This document shows positions 2,517 through 11,005 of a stretch of DNA of 11,232 bases, piece after piece (positions within the stretch are counted from its first letter, which is position 1; the number at the start of each line of letters is the position of its first letter). Location of the stretch: NCBI GenBank assembly GCA_005801425.1, contig SYDY01000045.1, forward strand, positions 1-11,232, given 5' to 3'. The notes below the pieces were generated by a model. The model did no database searches and had not been told where the DNA came from. It was given only the letters and a program-made list of their open reading frames with translations. The position numbers were made by a program, and so were the translations under genes. Source of the DNA: Bdellovibrionales bacterium. GTDB taxonomy: Bacteria > Myxococcota > XYA12-FULL-58-9 > SYDY01.

Positions 2517-3374
2517 ATGCAACGTCGTTTGTTCGGTGGGATTTTGTCCGTGGTTCTTTTACTTGTGGCTTTTTGGCAAGCGCAGAATACATCCGTACCG
2601 CATGATGCGAATGCATCAAACAATGCACCCCCACCAACCCCCACCCGGCCGGAGCCTTCCCTCGCGAAAGCGGGGGTGCCGACCTCCCCCGCAAGCGGGA
2701 GAGGATTTAACACTCGCATTGAGAATTTCGCAGAAGCCAAACGGCTTTTGCGCGAATCGATTTATAAAGATAACTACAAAACATTTTACTGTGCATGCGA
2801 TGTGGATCATGGCCGTGTTAATGTTTCAACCTGCGGATATCAAGCGAACACCAAGAAGCACGGGAACATACGCATTGAATGGGAGCATATTGTTCCTGCC
2901 TCCGTGCTTGGCAATTATTTGCCAGAATGGCGTGATGGGCACGTGCGGTGCACCCACCGAACGGGTAAGCATTTTCGGGGGCGTGAATGCGCTGGCCGTG
3001 TTTCTAAAAAATTTCAAATGCTAGAAGCCGATATGCACAATTTGGTGCCCGCACTTGGCCCGCTAAATCGTGCACGATCCAATCTGGCCTACGGAGACGT
3101 TCCTGGTGAAATGCGATCCTTTGGACGATGTGATTTTGAAATATCAAAAGAACGCGCAGAGCCCATGCCGTCCATTCGGGGATTTATCGCGCGCGCGTAT
3201 TTGTACATGAATATGGCATATCCTGAGTCAAAAATCATCCACGAAGGCAATCAAGCCATATTCACACGATGGGATCTGGAACACCCACCCGAACCGTGGG
3301 AATGCGAACGCAATACGAAGATCAAAAATATTCAGGGGAATGAGAATTCGTTTATTACGAAGCGATGTCCGTAA
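2517..3374 (+). CDS. endA: Endonuclease I (EndA/Dns) family secreted nuclease with repeat-encoded linker
   Basis: The 285-residue product is a non-specific DNA/RNA nuclease of the endonuclease I family, normally periplasmic or secreted. A hydrophobic N-terminal segment (residues 6-19) serves as signal or anchor. The catalytic domain runs from about residue 66 to the end. It shows FYCACDVDHG and CGY (90-108), the His-metal signature EWEHIVPAS (121-129, catalytic His124), ADMHNLVPALGPLNRARSN (171-189), RCDFEI (204-209), RGFIARAYLYM (221-231) and the C-terminal block ending QGNENSFI. In most relatives the RGxIAR block is RGDIAR; here Phe223 replaces the Asp. Six or more cysteines suggest disulfides and an extracytoplasmic location. 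Residues 41-63 are encoded by an inserted palindromic repeat, between signal and catalytic domain. The gene converges with the dab operon. The symbol reflects the family; orthology to a particular endA is not shown. Confidence 0.9.
   Translation: MQRRLFGGILSVVLLLVAFWQAQNTSVPHDANASNNAPPPTPTRPEPSLAKAGVPTSPASGRGFNTRIENFAEAKRLLRESIYKDNYKTFYCACDVDHGRVNVSTCGYQANTKKHGNIRIEWEHIVPASVLGNYLPEWRDGHVRCTHRTGKHFRGRECAGRVSKKFQMLEADMHNLVPALGPLNRARSNLAYGDVPGEMRSFGRCDFEISKERAEPMPSIRGFIARAYLYMNMAYPESKIIHEGNQAIFTRWDLEHPPEPWECERNTKIKNIQGNENSFITKRCP
2638..2704. repeat. Palindromic repeat copy A, in frame inside the endonuclease gene
   Basis: This GC-rich element contains two hairpins: CCCTCGC-GAAA-GCGGGGG (2659-2676, one G-T wobble) and CCTCCCCCGC-AA-GCGGGAGAGG (2683-2704, one mismatch). 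It shares the start CCCCCACCCG, the central GACCTCCCC and the end CAAGCGGnAGAGG with copy B at 3379-3424. It is translated as a Pro/Ser/Ala-rich linker, residues 41-63, without stops. Its composition resembles palindromic repeats widespread in alphaproteobacterial genomes. Confidence 0.8.
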
Positions 3375-3378
3375 AACA

Positions 3379-3424
3379 CCCCCACCCGTCGCTTCGCGAC
3401 GACCTCCCCATCAAGCGGAAGAGG
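3379..3424. repeat. Palindromic repeat copy B, between convergent genes
   Basis: This is a shorter relative of copy A lying in the 57-nt gap between the endonuclease stop and the last operon gene. It contains a perfect 6-bp hairpin CGTCGC-TTC-GCGACG (3387-3401) and a weaker second inverted repeat ending GCGGAAGAGG. On the minus strand the hairpin is followed about 12 nt later by TTTT, so it may act as a weak terminator or mRNA 3' stabiliser for the operon. Confidence 0.75.
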
Positions 3425-3431
3425 TTATATC

Positions 3432-4895
3432 TTAGTGCGCATGGCTTTCTGAGACGTCTGAAACCAGTTGTACCGCGACACTGGTGCGGGTATCCACCAA
3501 GGGTCCTGGAAATATTCCAGAAACAATCAACAAGACAACCAAGCCCACAAGGGCGAGTCGTTCGCGCAAAAGAAGATCCCACACGTAGCGTCCCTCAGGC
3601 GATGGGCCACCAAAAATGCGGAAAAAACAACGAAGTACATTGAAACCGTTGGCCGCTGTTGCCAGGATCATGGCAATCCCCGTCCATGGATGCGCATCAA
3701 GCGTACCGTGGGCGATGAGATCTTCGGCCACATAACCGAGTGTTCCAGGCAATCCCACCGAGGCCATACCAAGAATTAAAAAACAGGTTGCCAATATGGG
3801 GGCTTGCACACCAAGGCCATAAAATTTTCGCAGATCAATACGATTCACACGTGATTCAATGCATGCGATTGCGAGACCCAAACCTGTCAATGACAATCCC
3901 ATGGCAATCCACAACACCAACGCACCTGTGATGCCACTGATATTCGCACATTCAAGACCGACCAAGACCAAAGAACTTTGACTTACGACCATCCAGCCAT
4001 ACGCGCGACGCATATCACGCGCGCCAAGCCCCACGACCGCGCCATACAATGTCGCCACAAGTGCAATTTGGCCTACCCAGGGCATTGCTTCAGCACTTGC
4101 ACTTGGAAAAATGGCAAGCCCTATGCGGATCAAAACAAACAACGAGACCTGAGGTGCTGCAAGAAGCGCGACGGTGGATGTGCCTTCCCTATCTGCAAGA
4201 GATGGCATCCACGAATGAAACGGAAACACGCCTTTGCGTATCATCACTGCAATAAGAATGGCAGGAAGAACCCATCGCGGGATGTACGCTTCAATACCAT
4301 GGGCATCAAGAAGCGATGACGGTGCTAACACCTGCGCATCAACACCCGCTTGAATGATCCCCGCCACACCCGCAATAAAAAGAACGCAACTGAGCACAAG
4401 ATACGGCACGTGAATGTGACCGCCAAGGCTCCACATTGTGTGCCGTGAAGGCAAAAGAGGCATCAGTCCGATGACCCATGCCACCGCCACTAAAATCAAA
4501 TCCTCACTCAAAAACAACAGCCACACCGCGCACAATTGCCACAAAATAATTCCAATTCGCGCGGGCGTCATCAGCGCACGCGGTGTCGCCAACAAAGCTG
4601 ACAATGATAAGATCGATGCAAACGGCAAAAGCAATGCATTCAGTGAATCCACGGCAAGCAAAGGCTCTTCATGAAAACCGATCACGCGCAATGGATCGAC
4701 CCACGGGGTCGGATTCATGACATTGTAAAACAAGATAGTGGCAACAATACCTGCGATCGTAAACAGAGACGCAACCACCACCGCAAGCTTACGCGCAAGG
4801 CGTGGATCGGAGCCACGCCCGATCACAATCGCACAGAACAAACCGAAGGCTAGAAAAGCACTTAACCACGGCCATTCTAAGGTTCGGTACATCAT
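3432..4895 (-). CDS. NuoM/antiporter-like proton-channel subunit of the Dab-type operon
   Basis: This is a 487-residue polytopic membrane protein of the proton-conducting transporter family (NuoL/M/N, MrpA/D), hydrophobic throughout. Recognisable blocks are SEDLILVAVAW (130-140), RKGVFPFHSWMP (220-231), ARDMRRAYGWMVVSQSSL (292-309) and GLPGTLGYVAEDLIAHG (381-397). Several residues used for proton relay in complex I subunits are altered. The Glu of transmembrane helix 5 appears as Val141, the Lys before the PFH motif is Arg220-Lys221, and the His of the HG[LF] motif is Met332. Helix-12-region Glu391 remains. The ATG overlaps the NuoL-like stop as ATGA; its own Shine-Dalgarno is weak, so expression probably relies on translational coupling. 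Being last in an operon with DabA and a NuoL-like subunit, it is likely an extra membrane partner of that complex. A structural role instead of a proton-pumping one is possible. Complex I itself is unlikely, since no other nuo genes are present. Confidence 0.85.
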   Translation of the reverse strand: MMYRTLEWPWLSAFLAFGLFCAIVIGRGSDPRLARKLAVVVASLFTIAGIVATILFYNVMNPTPWVDPLRVIGFHEEPLLAVDSLNALLLPFASILSLSALLATPRALMTPARIGIILWQLCAVWLLFLSEDLILVAVAWVIGLMPLLPSRHTMWSLGGHIHVPYLVLSCVLFIAGVAGIIQAGVDAQVLAPSSLLDAHGIEAYIPRWVLPAILIAVMIRKGVFPFHSWMPSLADREGTSTVALLAAPQVSLFVLIRIGLAIFPSASAEAMPWVGQIALVATLYGAVVGLGARDMRRAYGWMVVSQSSLVLVGLECANISGITGALVLWIAMGLSLTGLGLAIACIESRVNRIDLRKFYGLGVQAPILATCFLILGMASVGLPGTLGYVAEDLIAHGTLDAHPWTGIAMILATAANGFNVLRCFFRIFGGPSPEGRYVWDLLLRERLALVGLVVLLIVSGIFPGPLVDTRTSVAVQLVSDVSESHAH

Positions 4896-6235
4896 GGCTC
4901 AACCCGCTTTGCATCGATATTTCCCGCCCAACGTTCTTCAATGCGTTCCAAGGACCCCGCGATTTTCATGAGTGGCCCCACGAGCGTGCTTTGCACGACC
5001 GCATCCATATCGCATCCACGCATGGCGGCCGTGTATAGCCATCGACGCAAACGCATGGGAAACAAAAATTCATATTGCCCCCCCCCTCGACTCAGGTCAC
5101 TGCCTCCCGTCGCTGCTTTAAGACGGTTGAATTCGCGCAATACGGTCGCGGAACGCAAAAACTGAAGGGTACGCAATGTTGCGTGTCCTCCCATGTGCAG
5201 CAAAGCAAAGAAATGGAATCCAAATCCTATTTCGACAAAAATAAGCCCAACCTGTGCCATGGCCGAATAGGCAAGTTGATTTTTTACATCACATTGCACG
5301 CGGCCAACCAACGTACCGTAAATCGCCGTTAAAAGACCAATGACCACAATACTCACCATGGTGATCGCGGATCGTTCAAGAAGCGGCGACATACGCAGCA
5401 GCAAGTAAGCGCCCGCATGAATGGAGATCCCACCGTAGAAAATGGCACTTGAGGGTGTCGGGCCTTCCATGGCACGCGGCAACCAATTACCAAACGGGAC
5501 TTGGCCCGACTTACCCATGGCAGCAAGCAAGAAAAGAAGACCAATCACATGGAGCGGCGCAGTGGGGATATCAGGAAGCCCCACAGGCCAATGGGCATGG
5601 GTAAATACCAAATCAAATTCAGCCGTGTGTGCGTAGTGATGAAGCAAAATAGCCCCAACCAACAAGCCCACATCGCAGATCCGATAAACGGCAAACGTAC
5701 GCAAACCATTGAGAACCGGCTCTTTACGATGTTGGAAAAAACCGATCAACAACGCAGAGGAAAGACCCACCAATTCCCAACCTGCAAAAAGCAAATCGAT
5801 GGTACCTCCCATGGCGAGGCAAAGCATCCCAACTAAAAACATCAACATCAAAAGAAAAAAACGTGCATAACCACTTTCATGATGTAGATAGCTTCGCGAA
5901 AACCGCCCAACAATGCCCGTTAGTATGCACGTGAGAAGAACAAAGGGCATGGACAACCGATCGATAAGAAAGACAATTTCAAATTCATAGTTGGCTGCGA
6001 TAAACCACGCGCCGAGATCCACAACCACCTGATCGGTATGATTGAACATCATCGCCATGGAAATGGTGATTGCTGCAAGCAATGATCCCAACTGCGCTGT
6101 GCCTGAAATACGCGAGATCATTAATTCTGAGGGTCTTCGCTGTATAAGTAAGTTGGCACCAAGCCAGAGAAAAGCAAGCGTAGGAAGAAGCAAAATGGTG
6201 ATTGCACATGCGGTAAAAAATTGCTCTGTGCTCAT
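4892..6235 (-). CDS. dabB: DabB-like NuoL-type membrane subunit
   Basis: This 447-residue polytopic protein of the proton-conducting transporter family is shorter than complex I NuoL (about 600). It is the probable ion-channel partner of DabA. Conserved blocks are AGWELVGLSSALLIGF (151-166, helix-5 Glu154), GKSGQVPFGNWLPRAMEGPT (241-260, Lys242), DVKNQLAYSAMAQVG (316-330) and HMGGHATLRTLQFLR (347-361). In the last block His347 and His351 are kept, but the Lys usual in NuoL is Arg355. PLHTWLP of NuoL is PFGNWLP here, losing a His. The C-terminal part after residue 380 follows a run of nine G bases coding Gly384-386. The ATG overlaps the dabA stop (ATGA) and is preceded by AGGAG (6247-6243) at 7 nt. 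In known DAB systems this subunit is thought to carry the ion flux that drives CO2 hydration by DabA; assignment here rests on family plus context. Confidence 0.87.
   Translation of the reverse strand: MSTEQFFTACAITILLLPTLAFLWLGANLLIQRRPSELMISRISGTAQLGSLLAAITISMAMMFNHTDQVVVDLGAWFIAANYEFEIVFLIDRLSMPFVLLTCILTGIVGRFSRSYLHHESGYARFFLLMLMFLVGMLCLAMGGTIDLLFAGWELVGLSSALLIGFFQHRKEPVLNGLRTFAVYRICDVGLLVGAILLHHYAHTAEFDLVFTHAHWPVGLPDIPTAPLHVIGLLFLLAAMGKSGQVPFGNWLPRAMEGPTPSSAIFYGGISIHAGAYLLLRMSPLLERSAITMVSIVVIGLLTAIYGTLVGRVQCDVKNQLAYSAMAQVGLIFVEIGFGFHFFALLHMGGHATLRTLQFLRSATVLREFNRLKAATGGSDLSRGGGQYEFLFPMRLRRWLYTAAMRGCDMDAVVQSTLVGPLMKIAGSLERIEERWAGNIDAKRVEP
5078..5086 (-). repeat. G9 homopolymer inside the dabB-like gene
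   Basis: Nine consecutive C on the plus strand read as GGG GGG GGG (Gly384-386) in the NuoL-like gene. The reading frame is intact on both sides as given. Runs of this length are prone to slippage during replication, and also to sequencing error. Confidence 0.95.
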
Positions 6236-9200
6236 GGCGAAACTCCTGCCGATCTTTCTGGTCGCGCAATGGCACTGCGTACAATACTAACACCCAGATT
6301 TTCACGATGTCCGAAATACCAATCTTGTGATCGCGCAATGGAAGGAAGTGGTTTTCCTCCACTCACCGTGCCGAACGAACCATGGGTATATTCTGAGACA
6401 ACGCCTGTATCTGGGTCAATCAATGCAAGCTGAACCCACCGATTGGAGATCGCACGACCCACCGCGGGTTGCCGTTCAGCAACACGCGCAATGGTTGCAG
6501 GGGTACCTTCTATAATCACGAGAAGCCGCATAGGCTCGTGAATTTCGACCATTTGCCATGGAAACCCTGTACGAAGATCGCTCATGGGGCCATTCATGAC
6601 CCCAATCAAACTCGTCACATTATGGGGAAGTTTGGAGCCTGCGCCGTAGCGTTCGTTGTCGATATAGGAAAGTCCGTATTCAAGATTAATATTCATTCCA
6701 ACGGGACCCATGGCGGCAAGAAGGCGAGAAATAATTTCCGCATCATGATCGATAGTCGGGTCGTAGGACACCAAAAACGCGCGACGATCCAAAAATAAAC
6801 CGCGTGTTAAGGATCGCCTTCCAAATACACACATCGCATTGCTTGCATTGCCATATTCGGCACGGGGCTGGGCAAGATCTTCGGCGCGGCCCTCGGCCGC
6901 AATCAATGTTTGTTCATCAGAATAATCGAGAGGAACATTTTCAAAACGTCGACATCGTTCGTGGGCATTTTGCATGCGTGCACGATCAAATGACGATTTT
7001 AAATACGCAAGATCTTCATGATGTGATGCAGGCACGTTTTCAAGATCAAACCACGAAATACTGTCGTTGCATGTGTCGTGATAGCCCGCCACAAACACCG
7101 TGGATCCGGGGATGGTGATACCTCGTTGTGCGAGAATTTCACGCACCTTTTGTTTGTTCGCCATGAGTGCAAACAAACGCGCATTGGGGCCACCTTTGCG
7201 ACCCGCGCATGCAGCACATTCGTAAGCCGATTCAAAAGGATTGTTCAGACTTGAGGATCCATGCCCAATCATGGAAATGATCCGTGCAAAACGGCGTGTA
7301 AGGCCTATATCTTGGAGAACACGTTCTACACGGTTGGCCATTTCCTCACTGGTAAATCCGGGAAATAGCGCCAAAGATCCCCGTTCTTCCGCATCGCGCT
7401 GAAGCGCAAGTTGTGTTTGAGGTTTAGGGAAAAATGATTTTTGAAACCAACGATTAAGACGACTGACCAGATGTGGATGCAATATTCGTACAGACATGGG
7501 TACAATCGCCAAAAGTCCAAGGCCACATGTGGCAAGCCATCCACGAAGTAAACCGCGTGAACCCACAAAAAAGTTAAGAAGTAAGGTGGCAATCACACGG
7601 CGACGTGCAAGATAACGTCTTTGTTTTGTGCTATCGTCACCTTCCATACTGAATTCACGCACTTCGTGTTCGGGTTTTTGAACCACAGGACACAAGGGCG
7701 CATGATATCCATCGTCAAGTCCGCGATACGCGACTGCCACACCAAAAAATCCACCGGTCCCATGCGTTTCTATATCGTGCGAGATCTCTTCAAGATAACG
7801 GCGCAAAGACTCTTCGCGCGCATCAATACAAAAAACCAACTGAAGCCTGGGCGGCGGAAGATGTTCAAGAGAAGGTGTGACTGTTTTTCGATACGTTCCT
7901 ATGGCTTGCAATATTCCCCTGCGATAATGGCACTCAAACGCCAAATGCCAGATCCTCCGACGTTCAACGTGATCAAAAACACGGATCTCATCTGTCACTT
8001 CCCTGATTTCTTGATCAGAAAGGTCAAGCAGATTCGGTGTGGAAATGCCGAGATCTTGGGCCACCTGGAACAAAGAAAATGCTTCCACACGACGTGGATC
8101 GGGGATAACCCGAAGAACCGATGCATCCGGTGTTGTCCACAATGCAGCCGCAGTCCCCACATGATCAAATTCTTTGTGTGCAAGAACCAACGCCGCTGCA
8201 TGATCAAACAACAACCGAACTGCCATAAATTCAGAAAACTTGCAGGGTGGACAGTGGTCTGGTGCAAGCTCTGGCTCACGCTGAAGCCGTCCAATCATGC
8301 CTCCCCAACCAGGAAGCGCAAGGGCTGTCTCTTGGATCACCATAGGCCACGACTCCTGCGGGTAACCCATGGCCTGTAAGCTCACAACGATGGACGCTTC
8401 TGCACCCAATTCTGCATGGTTGTTTTCACGCAATATTTTGCGCAGCTCGTGCCACAGCGGCGCCACGGCATGGGGACCTTTAAGGATCACATGCTGCATC
8501 GCTGCAAGAAGACCCAATGCCGCATCGGGCATGGGCCAGTAGGCAAGACCTTGATCTAAAAATGAAGCCAATATGGGAACAAGAACTTCATGAACCATAT
8601 CATCGAGATCACGCCTTGTGATGTCAAATAGTAAATCACGTATTCTGACATGATTTTTCTTCGCATCGTTTTTTCTTGGCGCAACACAGGACGCAACCCT
8701 GTACGTGCAAGCAGCCCACAAACTGGCCACTGTGCATGCTTGCGGTTGTGAACGCAGGGCCGATGCAATACCATGCGCCGTAGGCTCCGCACCAAGCCAT
8801 CGGCGTACGAGTTCCTTAGGGTCCATGCGATAGAAATGATCACGAAACAGCAATGCGGGATCGTCATGGGTATGAAGCTGCACCGAAAGCCAGGACGATG
8901 TTTCGGCGATCACCGCACGATTGGCCACTGGATCGAGATCCGGTAAAAACCAGCGAAGCAATCCGAATTCTTCAAGCTGCCAGGTAATCGAATCATCGTC
9001 GGGCTCAATCAGTCCGCGATGCAATAAAGCCCGGCGAAGCTCACGTCTTGAAAAACGCCCCCCAAGCAAAAGATCATCACCATGGGCATCTTCTGAAAAA
9101 TCGCGGGAGAGGATCGCTTCGAGATCCGTTTTATCAATACGCCCTTCTTTGAATTTTTCGCGGTACCAACTTTCGGGCATATACGGCTCACCACGAAACG

Positions 9201-9357
9201 TTTGAGAAGCCTTGATCGCCGCTTTTTCAAAGGGCAAGTGCTCGAAAGCTTCCCATATATTGTGGTGCACAAAGACACCAATGGGCCCCTGAGATGGGAG
9301 AAGCCGCACCGCATCGGCAAGGGCTTTGTTGATGGTTTCGTGAGCCGATGATGACAT
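6232..9357 (-). CDS. dabA: DabA (DUF2309/UPF0753), zinc-dependent CO2-hydrating subunit
   Basis: This 1041-residue protein belongs to the DUF2309/UPF0753 family, whose characterised members DabA and MpsB form a membrane-associated complex with a NuoL-like partner to capture inorganic carbon. N-terminal GPIGVFVHHNIWEAFEHLPF (24-43) is a family hallmark. The beta-carbonic-anhydrase-like zinc site is complete: CIDAR gives Cys510 and Asp512. IGHGSSSLNNPFESAYECAAC gives His699 and Cys714, with the same 15-residue His-Cys spacing as His524/Cys539 of Halothiobacillus DabA. I place the start at 9357, not at the longer in-frame ATG at 9390. The 9357 start forms TAATG with the sulP stop and has GGAGGAGG 8 nt upstream; residues 1-11 of the longer form would lie inside sulP. 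Length exceeds the roughly 800-residue well-studied DabA, so it belongs to the long subgroup. The stop overlaps the next gene as ATGA. Cytoplasmic, attached to the membrane through its partner. Confidence 0.93.
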   Translation of the reverse strand: MSSSAHETINKALADAVRLLPSQGPIGVFVHHNIWEAFEHLPFEKAAIKASQTFRGEPYMPESWYREKFKEGRIDKTDLEAILSRDFSEDAHGDDLLLGGRFSRRELRRALLHRGLIEPDDDSITWQLEEFGLLRWFLPDLDPVANRAVIAETSSWLSVQLHTHDDPALLFRDHFYRMDPKELVRRWLGAEPTAHGIASALRSQPQACTVASLWAACTYRVASCVAPRKNDAKKNHVRIRDLLFDITRRDLDDMVHEVLVPILASFLDQGLAYWPMPDAALGLLAAMQHVILKGPHAVAPLWHELRKILRENNHAELGAEASIVVSLQAMGYPQESWPMVIQETALALPGWGGMIGRLQREPELAPDHCPPCKFSEFMAVRLLFDHAAALVLAHKEFDHVGTAAALWTTPDASVLRVIPDPRRVEAFSLFQVAQDLGISTPNLLDLSDQEIREVTDEIRVFDHVERRRIWHLAFECHYRRGILQAIGTYRKTVTPSLEHLPPPRLQLVFCIDAREESLRRYLEEISHDIETHGTGGFFGVAVAYRGLDDGYHAPLCPVVQKPEHEVREFSMEGDDSTKQRRYLARRRVIATLLLNFFVGSRGLLRGWLATCGLGLLAIVPMSVRILHPHLVSRLNRWFQKSFFPKPQTQLALQRDAEERGSLALFPGFTSEEMANRVERVLQDIGLTRRFARIISMIGHGSSSLNNPFESAYECAACAGRKGGPNARLFALMANKQKVREILAQRGITIPGSTVFVAGYHDTCNDSISWFDLENVPASHHEDLAYLKSSFDRARMQNAHERCRRFENVPLDYSDEQTLIAAEGRAEDLAQPRAEYGNASNAMCVFGRRSLTRGLFLDRRAFLVSYDPTIDHDAEIISRLLAAMGPVGMNINLEYGLSYIDNERYGAGSKLPHNVTSLIGVMNGPMSDLRTGFPWQMVEIHEPMRLLVIIEGTPATIARVAERQPAVGRAISNRWVQLALIDPDTGVVSEYTHGSFGTVSGGKPLPSIARSQDWYFGHRENLGVSIVRSAIARPERSAGVSP

Positions 9358-10577
9358 TACGCACGCCTCCTCCGTTTGAACCCTGCCCACACCGCATGCA
9401 CCACAAGTCCTGCCGCCACGCCTTTAAGCAAATCGGTCGCAAGGATCATCGCAATCGTCACGATAAAGGGCAAAAAGGCATGCCATCCATCTTCCCACAT
9501 TTCTCGGAACACTTTAGGCGACGTCAGTTTAAAACCAATGGCAAGAAGAATGGCCGCCAAACATGACAGTGGAATACGATTGAGAAGTGTTGGTATGAAC
9601 ACCACGCACAATAATAACAAAAAGCCATGCACGATCGCAGAAAGCCGCGATTTTGCGCCAGCGTGGATATTGGATGAGCTGCGGACTATCACGGAAGTGA
9701 CAGGCAATCCGCCCAACAATCCAGAAGCCATATTTCCTACACCTTGGGCGCACAACTCGCGATTGGCGGGTGATTTTCTTTTTTTAGGATCCAATGAATC
9801 CGTTGCCGAGAGATTTAAAATGGTTTCAAGCGATGCCACCAAGGCGAGCGTTACCGCTGGCAGGATAATACGTGGACTTGTCAGTGACGAAAAATCGGGC
9901 CGGTACAACTGATTCACAAAATCACCAAAGTGCGCGGTGATGGGCACTTGAACCAAATATTTTTCCGCAAGCGTCCATGCGGTGGATCCGTGAAAAAACA
10001 AGGCGAGGATCCATGAACAAAAGACGCCCAACAGAACGACCAGCAACGCCACAGGTATAAGCGAACGCGAAAAACGTGGCATATAAGGCCACGCGATAAT
10101 CAGTGCCAACGATAAAAAACCAATAACCGTGGATCCTTCATGCCATCCTTGGCTTTTGGCATATCCAATCAAATACGGCGTTTGTTTGATGATCAAAATC
10201 AGCCCAATGGCGGCAAGCAAGCCTGTGATCACACTTTTGGGAACATATGCAATCAGGGCACCAGCACGTGCCAGTCCCAAGATCATCTGCAACACACCGG
10301 CAAGGATCAAGGCTGCCAAAAAAATATTAAAAGATCCCAACGCATCAATTTGGGTCGCAACGACCGCGGTGAGCCCCGCAGCAGGACCACTCACGCTGGT
10401 ATGTGAACCGCTCAATGCGCCAACGACAATTCCCCCCACGATGCCTGCCACAAGGCCTGCAAGTAACGGTGCACCGGAAGCCAAAGCAATGCCCAAGCAA
10501 AGTGGAAGTGCTACCAAAAAGACGACAAGGCCTGCGCTAAGATCAGCGATCAGCGGATTTTTTGTTTCTGTATTCAT
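9357..10577 (-). CDS. SulP-family anion (probable bicarbonate or sulfate) transporter without STAS domain
   Basis: This 406-residue membrane protein is the first gene of the operon. It shows the SulP core: DLSAGLVVFLVALPLCLGIA (12-31), SGSHTSVSGPAAGLTAVVAT (56-75), and ANRELCAQGVGNMASGLLGG (271-290) followed by LPVTSVIVRSSSNIHAGAKS (291-310). It ends in KRRRRA directly after the last hydrophobic segment, so the cytoplasmic STAS domain of typical SulP transporters (about 550 residues) is absent. SulP members include the bicarbonate transporter BicA as well as sulfate carriers. Fusion into an operon with dabA points to bicarbonate, but the substrate cannot be read from sequence. ATG at 10577 is preceded by AAGG (10589-10586) at 8 nt. 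The stop and the dabA start share TAATG. No convincing promoter is seen in the roughly 100 nt upstream, where only a C7 run (10637-10643) and a CCCCG/CGGGG hairpin stand out. Confidence 0.92.
   Translation of the reverse strand: MNTETKNPLIADLSAGLVVFLVALPLCLGIALASGAPLLAGLVAGIVGGIVVGALSGSHTSVSGPAAGLTAVVATQIDALGSFNIFLAALILAGVLQMILGLARAGALIAYVPKSVITGLLAAIGLILIIKQTPYLIGYAKSQGWHEGSTVIGFLSLALIIAWPYMPRFSRSLIPVALLVVLLGVFCSWILALFFHGSTAWTLAEKYLVQVPITAHFGDFVNQLYRPDFSSLTSPRIILPAVTLALVASLETILNLSATDSLDPKKRKSPANRELCAQGVGNMASGLLGGLPVTSVIVRSSSNIHAGAKSRLSAIVHGFLLLLCVVFIPTLLNRIPLSCLAAILLAIGFKLTSPKVFREMWEDGWHAFLPFIVTIAMILATDLLKGVAAGLVVHAVWAGFKRRRRA
9358..9373 (-). promoter_or_regulatory. Shine-Dalgarno that fixes the dabA start
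   Basis: GGAGGAGG at 9373-9366 on the minus strand lies 8 nt before the ATG at 9357 and inside the last codons of sulP. It is the strongest ribosome-binding site in the operon and favours the 1041-residue DabA over the 1052-residue reading. It implies high, independently initiated DabA synthesis in addition to coupling. Confidence 0.8.
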
Positions 10578-10681: not shown

Positions 10682-11005
10682 TTAAGAAATGGGCGGGCCG
10701 CGGGGATAGCCCACCACGGAGGTGCGGCTTATGGGAGATTGTCGTTCAATCGGTGTTTTGAGGAAGTAAAACAGTGAATTCGTAGGGACAGGCTGTAAAA
10801 CAACATCAACACCATGCGCATGCACACGGCGGCGTTTCTCTTCTTCTTTTTCGCTTTTTTCTTCGATGTCGCACAGTCCATCAAGAACATGTACAGATTG
10901 TTCGCATTGTAGCGCCGGTTCGCGAACCGACCTTGTCTCTGCGGGCGCTTCACGAAGCGCCCCTACAGGGACACATAGCATGATGATGTACAGAAGACCG
11001 TTCAA
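10682..11005 (-). CDS. Doubtful small hypothetical protein carrying a repeat-encoded segment
   Basis: A 107-codon reading frame from a TTG, without a visible Shine-Dalgarno; an in-frame ATG at codon 9 is an alternative. It begins with a short hydrophobic stretch (residues 4-11). Residues 13-33 are encoded by the palindromic element at 10908-10967, then come CEQSVHVLDGLCD (34-46), a Glu/Lys/Arg-rich block (48-60) and a tail I do not recognise. The stop lies 104 nt before the sulP start, in the same direction. It may be a small exported protein, or a decayed or non-coding stretch between the operon and the transposon remnant. No function is proposed. Confidence 0.3.
   Translation of the reverse strand: MNGLLYIIMLCVPVGALREAPAETRSVREPALQCEQSVHVLDGLCDIEEKSEKEEEKRRRVHAHGVDVVLQPVPTNSLFYFLKTPIERQSPISRTSVVGYPRGPPIS
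10908..10967. repeat. Palindromic (REP/MITE-like) element with TGTAG/CTACA ends
   Basis: A 60-bp element bounded by inverted TGTAG (10908-10912) and CTACA (10963-10967). It contains a perfect 14-bp palindrome CGGTTCGCGAACCG (10916-10929) and a hairpin GGGCGCTT-CACG-AAGCGCCC (10943-10962). The sequence type differs from copies A and B. It looks like a small non-autonomous palindromic repeat; other genomic copies are not visible here. Confidence 0.75.

Follow-up and report, generated by a model that had tools for sequence, protein, structure and literature searches.

A clade C dabA operon with NuoL-like and NuoM-like partners suggests a proton path shared between two degenerate antiporter-like subunits

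The four-gene operon on an 11,232-bp stretch of DNA from a Bdellovibrionales bacterium raises the question of why a DabA protein should be encoded together with two antiporter-like subunits, one resembling NuoL and one NuoM, and with a SulP transporter. The stretch, hereafter the window, is one entire contig (C35) of a draft genome of 3.38 Mb in 121 contigs. Judging from alignments, structural models and analogy with complex I, the answer that we favor, at somewhat better than even confidence, is that the operon encodes a DAC/DAB system of the group named clade C, in which a vectorial carbonic anhydrase driven by the proton-motive force would be served by a NuoL-NuoM heterodimer with a shared proton path, SulP being separate. 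The narrower proposal, that one proton pathway is split across two complementary degenerate antiporter-like proteins, replaces the role of a glutamate in the DabA finger and drives the vectorial carbonic anhydrase, is plausible and held at a little under even confidence. The genes of the operon are the following.

10577 to 3432, minus strand: SulP-DabA-NuoL-NuoM operon, four open reading frames (ORFs) joined by TAATG, ATGA and ATGA
9357..10577, minus strand: SulP-family transporter, 406 amino acids, without a STAS domain (PF00916)
6232..9357, minus strand: dabA, 1041 amino acids, clade C type, beta-carbonic-anhydrase-like cytoplasmic subunit (PF10070)
4892..6235, minus strand: NuoL-like DabB homologue, 447 amino acids (PF00361 and PF00662)
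3432..4895, minus strand: NuoM-like subunit, 487 amino acids (PF00361)

The initial annotation had described four minus-strand genes with TAATG, ATGA and ATGA junctions, and the ORFs, their coordinates and the Pfam matches bore this out. DabA scored 737 bits against PF10070 (cut-off 25), SulP 173 bits against PF00916 (cut-off 23.2), and the NuoL-like protein, whose gene overlaps dabA by 4 nucleotides, 143 bits against PF00361. At the SulP/dabA junction the SulP stop codon TAA (9359-9357) shares a base with the DabA ATG (9357-9355), and GGAGG lies shortly 5' of it; the ATG at 9357 is most likely the DabA start, in preference to the GTG at 9390 given by the ORF list. The gene arrangement is no discovery, since it was published in 2017. 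The accessible text of the COGNAT paper (PMC5700660) describes ybcC (dabA) upstream of a nuoL homologue, often beside COG0659 (SulP) and COG1008 (NuoM), names the group clade C, proposes a speculative role as an ion-pumping enzyme, and links the number of subunits to the number of ions moved. The window has this identical neighborhood, with ybcC/dabA 5' to nuoL and both COG neighbors present. The premise of the initial annotation, that DAB systems have two parts and that SulP transporters stand apart, thus overlooked both this report and the three-gene DAB1. Residue, truncation or fusion analysis, a role in CO2 metabolism and a functional test do not appear in that accessible text, and our search of the literature found no functional study or further analysis of the SulP/NuoM variant among the open-licence papers covered, although one in a subscription journal may have been missed. 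What is new, and testable, is the reading of a split antiporter, together with the residue pattern and the natural fusions behind it.

A genome scan yielded 80 loci whose DabA proteins were 38-45% identical to that of the window; they came from Planctomycetota, Verrucomicrobiota, Acidobacteriota, Myxococcota and others. The window's own phylum contributed further loci. Because similarity to the window was the search criterion, and many of the loci lie in metagenome bins, the counts given here describe clade C and not DabA at large. Among 69 clade C dabA genes with more than 3.3 kb of downstream sequence, a strict distance rule placed nuoL after dabA in 65 and nuoM in 59. NuoM followed NuoL in 63 of the 69 when two loci with overlong ORFs that broke the rule (L066 and L119) and two with fused genes (L123 and L140) were added to the 59. 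NuoM was truly absent from L010, L021 and L026, L074 carried a broken dabA, and L115 had an expanded cluster. The recurrence of the DabA-NuoL-NuoM order far exceeds chance, and the operon class is real and deep-branching, with members in Acidobacteriota, Verrucomicrobiota, Planctomycetota and Myxococcota. In the DabA tree, clade C was separated from canonical DabA with a support of 100, and the window protein formed a lone deep branch within clade C. At seven named canonical plasmid loci (Nitrobacter, Haloarcula, Mesorhizobium, Ideonella, Nocardia, Methylocystis, and Mycolicibacterium), dabB was upstream of dabA and neither nuoM nor sulP was present, whereas the order in the window is reversed, with dabA followed by the nuoL-like gene.

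Several loci had unusual layouts. Canonical dabB-dabA and clade C sulP-dabA adjoin on one contig at L073, and two clade C operons face each other at L025. L021 and L026 (8947-12096) have a 1049-amino-acid clade C dabA, and no NuoL or NuoM was found next to it in 21 kb of sequence. At L115 (G013:C104, 6017-15579), dabA is accompanied by four antiporter-like genes, encoding a complete NuoM, a 646-amino-acid NuoL, a clade-C-like NuoM and a second complete NuoM, and the cluster is flanked by genes apparently for ribosomal proteins L2 and S3.

We examined which functional residues the two antiporter-like proteins have kept. Reference residues were taken from the 2026 cryo-electron microscopy paper on DAB2 (PMC13144422), and alignments supplied the DabA2 and DabB2 sequences. 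Two positions in the window were central.

5774..5776, minus strand: NuoL-like E154, aligned with E. coli NuoL Glu144 of the subunit-interface ion pair
3720..3725, minus strand: NuoM-like E391-D392, the acid of transmembrane helix 12 (TM12), aligned with the columns of E. coli NuoM Glu407 and NuoL Asp400

By both alignment and model, the NuoL-like protein of about 450 amino acids comprises TM1-11 and a C-terminal lateral helix, and TM12-15 are missing. The model, with a predicted local distance difference test score (pLDDT) of 88.7, aligned to complex I NuoL with Z of 45-50 over about 410 of 447 residues, TM12-15 being skipped. Glu144, Arg175, Asp178, Lys229, Lys305 and His334 were retained in all 93 clade C NuoL-like proteins. 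Glu144 is an ion-pair residue near the subunit interface in complex I (PMC13144422), and it is lost in canonical DabB, where it is Ile151 in DabB2 of Halothiobacillus neapolitanus and absent from all seven named canonical proteins. The NuoM-like protein of the clade has lost TM5 Glu144 and TM8 Lys265 and mostly carries Arg at TM7 Lys234; in the window the positions of TM5 Glu144, TM7 Lys234, TM8 Lys265 and TM12 Glu407 are Val, Arg, Gln and Glu. The TM12 acid, by contrast with this drift, was retained in 65 of 66 NuoM-like proteins, and the lone exception belonged to the broken-dabA locus. Both complete NuoMs at L115 have kept all four residues. The bacterium's own genome (G000) contains two PF00361 genes in total, both in the operon, and no complex I antiporter subunit was detected in it by this family. 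The two proteins are therefore not serving complex I, and we rejected the possibility that they are complex I subunits of the host.

Two related 1.8-Mb genomes of one family (L123 in G174 and L140 in G179) encode a natural fusion, in which a short NuoL, complete down to the lateral-helix tail, is joined to a C-terminal half of NuoM of 150-210 amino acids. The C-terminal parts matched the NuoM-like model at 40 and 51 bits and did not match the DabB or short-NuoL models. They contain the TM12 acid, and the N-terminal half of NuoM, which is degenerate elsewhere, is gone. We rejected the alternative that these parts are retained NuoL TM12-15, given that they follow the lateral-helix tail and match the NuoM-like model; L123 also matched E. 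coli NuoL weakly (E 0.005). At both loci SulP overlaps or abuts dabA. The idea in the initial annotation of a NuoL-like plus NuoM-like heterodimer is thus strongly supported by the near-constant adjacency of the genes, by the retention of Glu144 only with a NuoM partner, and by the NuoL-NuoM(C-half) fusions.

The same data bear on two other roles for NuoM. It could be a second complete proton pathway, moving two protons per CO2 as a lower gear and giving a steeper bicarbonate gradient, a general idea that comes from the COGNAT authors. Machines resembling complex I do add antiporter-like subunits, the accessible COGNAT text ties their number to the ions moved, and the dabA of L115 has four antiporter-like genes with two complete NuoMs. 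The usual clade NuoM, however, has lost two residues that an independent path needs, the TM5 Glu and the TM8 Lys, NuoL lacks TM12-15, and the fusions retain just half of NuoM, which makes a second pathway quite unlikely. NuoM could also conduct nothing and serve in structure or assembly, filling the space that TM12-15 of NuoL would occupy. Its degeneracy at key axial positions fits this role, as does its identity to the window protein of 25-32% against 38-45% for DabA, the lowest conservation of the three proteins. Against it stand the retention of the TM12 acid in 65 of 66 proteins amid drift and its location within the part of NuoM that the fusions preserve, and we regard this role as rather unlikely.

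The DabA subunit was examined in the same way, at the following positions.

7828..7830, minus strand: DabA C510, zinc ligand by alignment (C351 of DabA2), followed by D512 and R514
7216..7263, minus strand: DabA H699 to C714, zinc ligands by alignment (H524 and C539 of DabA2)
6847..6849, minus strand: DabA N837, aligned with the DabA2 Leu658 position
7432..7629, minus strand: DabA finger, residues 577-642, a hydrophobic helical hairpin by alignment and model

Residues C510, D512, R514, H699 and C714 of the window align to C351, D353, R355, H524 and C539 of DabA2, and the zinc ligands and the Asp-Arg dyad were retained in all 111 clade C DabA proteins. Foldseek alone returned nothing for the DabA model; with a second aligner the best structural matches were all beta-carbonic anhydrases (CsoSCA, Z 9.7), and the DAB2 structure was not among the fold matches. 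Replacement of Glu444 in the finger abolished DAB2 activity (PMC13144422). This residue is present in 14 of 15 canonical DabA proteins and in all eight named canonical controls. Its position falls at about C613 in the window (alignment within 2 residues, with no acid nearby), and none of the 111 clade C proteins has Glu there, A, P, G and others being found instead. At the Leu658 column, Leu is found in all canonical controls, His in 110 of 111 clade C proteins, and Asn in the window; beta-carbonic anhydrases have their transition-state Gln at this position (PMC13144422). A strongly hydrophobic segment occupies the finger region in 108 of 110 long-form clade C proteins and is no longer present in the two compact fused systems. 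L140 (9528-11495) encodes a DabA of 655 amino acids, the shortest intact one seen, with almost no finger.

These observations also bear on the possibility that the system runs in reverse or on another ion, with an exergonic DabA reaction energizing the membrane, or with Na+/HCO3- symport as for MpsAB. The accessible text of the COGNAT paper proposed an ion-pumping enzyme, sodium use has been argued for MpsAB, and the clade C alignment shows an active site that differs from that of DabA2 at positions 356 and 658. The zinc site and fold of DabA are nonetheless of the carbonic anhydrase type, DAB2 has no sodium requirement (PMC13144422), and NuoL retains its H+-path residues; we consider this explanation distinctly improbable.

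From these gene orders, losses, fusions and predicted folds, we infer a shared-path mechanism. DabA would hydrate CO2 to HCO3- at a beta-carbonic-anhydrase-type zinc site, and protons flowing inward through the membrane part would make this reaction one-way. In this membrane part, NuoL and NuoM would pair as a heterodimer with the docking seen in complex I. TM9-13 of NuoM would provide the outer half-path as far as the TM12 acid, and from there the proton would pass to the Glu144/Arg175/Asp178/Lys229 network of NuoL. The inner half-path would then be TM4-8 of NuoL with Glu144 and Lys229, NuoL's own TM12-15 being gone, and the whole path would replace the acid that the DabA finger supplies in DAB2 through Glu444. 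The stoichiometry would be about one proton per turnover, not two. A shared path would explain why NuoM is near-constant, why Glu144 is kept only in clade C, and why NuoL can do without TM12-15; it would likewise explain the dispensable Glu444 and the survival of the NuoM half alone in the fusions.

Several points weigh against this mechanism. NuoL keeps Lys305, His334 and His338 past the proposed hand-over, so that protons may still travel as far as the DabA finger; with Lys305 and the TM11 histidines kept, an alternative path may use NuoL TM9-11 and the finger. Long-form DabA still has a hydrophobic finger. A few clade loci (L010, L021 and L026) do without NuoM, or even NuoL, beside dabA. 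The two fusions belong to one family, and a single event could account for both. The docking rests on analogy with complex I, and the direction and the ion moved (H+ or Na+) are likewise what we infer.

We then asked how SulP fits this system. Among 44 loci with both flanks available, 24 had SulP, which lay upstream at 14 of them, downstream at 8 and in divergent orientation at 2; the other 20 lacked it. It was directly upstream of dabA in 26 of 73 loci, mostly overlapping or at most 30 bp apart. Its accessory domains varied between none, STAS, P-II and Usp. In Planctomycetota (L055, L038, L070, L011, and L037), SulP downstream of NuoM carried a C-terminal P-II domain, and at L042 a universal stress domain took its place. 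In the SulP tree the proteins beside dabA were polyphyletic, the "upstream" label changing at least 8 times. As judged from this tree and these positions, SulP is a frequent but optional neighbor that has been recruited repeatedly and independently beside dabA.

The initial annotation had entertained a single physical module including SulP. All four proteins in one complex would join bicarbonate import to CO2 hydration, and the tight SulP-DabA translational coupling in the window and the 26 loci with SulP immediately 5' to dabA would agree with this. The absences, the variable place and accessory domains, and the polyphyly through independent recruitment do not, and a four-protein complex is highly improbable. 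We accordingly rejected SulP as a fixed subunit; of the partners suspected of being sporadic beside dabA, SulP partly is and NuoM clearly is not. The convergent linkage of SulP to dabA favors a shared pathway over an obligate complex, and a functional partnership around bicarbonate is likely. Under the shared-path mechanism, SulP would be a separate, co-translated bicarbonate transporter in a common supply pathway, and not a subunit.

Typical SulP proteins have a C-terminal STAS domain, for which the window SulP (406 amino acids) gave no Pfam match. This protein scored 127.7 bits against the NCBIfam BicA equivalog, far below the cut-off of 880. The genome has three SulP genes: the operon gene, one fused to a beta-carbonic anhydrase, and one directly after a beta-carbonic anhydrase. 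The window SulP was sister to the SulP half of the fusion, a placement to be read with caution on account of long branches. Compared with SulP-carbonic anhydrase fusions, of which this one is the closest relative found, the window SulP is stand-alone, STAS-less and coupled to dabA. Elsewhere in the genome (L146, contig C81, 1750-6599), the genes run tsaC, beta-carbonic anhydrase, sulP, purE and purK, a bicarbonate supply beside its users; PurK and TsaC use bicarbonate. RuBisCO was not found in this genome, and we rejected a carboxysome/RuBisCO context on that ground. The role in this heterotrophic host is therefore probably HCO3- supply for biosynthesis, the users of which would be anaplerotic and biosynthetic carboxylations.

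Comparison with known systems placed the operon within the DIC-accumulating complexes (DAC/DAB, PF10070 plus PF00361), as it has both a zinc-site DabA and an adjacent NuoL-type subunit. It shares with DAB2 of Halothiobacillus neapolitanus (PMC13144422) this family pair, the Cys2His zinc site, the Asp-Arg dyad and a NuoL-type TM1-11 with most proton-path residues. It differs in lacking the finger Glu444, in having His/Asn for Leu658, in a DabB-like subunit that keeps Glu144 but lacks TM12-15 (DabB of DAB2 has 15 TM helices), and in its extra NuoM subunit and operon SulP. MpsAB of Staphylococcus (PMC8552792) belongs to the same DAC superfamily and has a heterotrophic host; it has two subunits and has been argued to use sodium, and the accessible text of that paper mentions neither NuoM nor SulP, both of which are in the window. 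The window NuoL scored 140.4 bits against the NdhF3 model TIGR01960, far below the cut-off of 588.7. Cyanobacterial NDH-1MS (NdhF3-NdhD3-CupA) is akin in outline, combining a NuoL-like subunit, a NuoM-like subunit and a CO2-hydrating protein. CupA is not known to be a PF10070 protein, and NDH-1MS differs in drawing its energy from ferredoxin oxidation as part of a whole NDH-1.

Outside the operon, 655 bp of sequence are visible 5' of SulP before the contig ends. GC-rich palindromes lie on either side of the operon (10692-10990 and 3380-3430, e.g. GGGGCGCTTCGTGAAGCGCCC) and are possible repeats or terminators. Promoter and terminator scans of the window gave scores equal to the shuffle level, and an Rfam search of the window gave no match. 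An endonuclease I gene (2517-3374) has an in-frame SLAKAGVPTSPASGRG stretch in its N-terminal part that resembles a mobile palindromic repeat, and a 749-amino-acid protein with FG-GAP repeats (243-2492) appears secreted or lipoprotein-like.

The clade bears on how protons cross antiporter subunits of the complex I type, and on whether each such subunit has a full channel of its own or shares half-channels with a neighbor. It is a small system, in which opposite halves of two neighboring subunits seem to have been removed during evolution, and the read-out could be as simple as growth of carbonic-anhydrase-deficient E. coli. If the split-path reading is true, the small-genome relatives show the minimum, a NuoL fused to half a NuoM. 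The Glu444 mechanism proposed on the basis of the DAB2 structure must differ in a large and widespread branch of the family, and the operon links CO2 hydration with SulP transporters in a bacterium that lacks RuBisCO.

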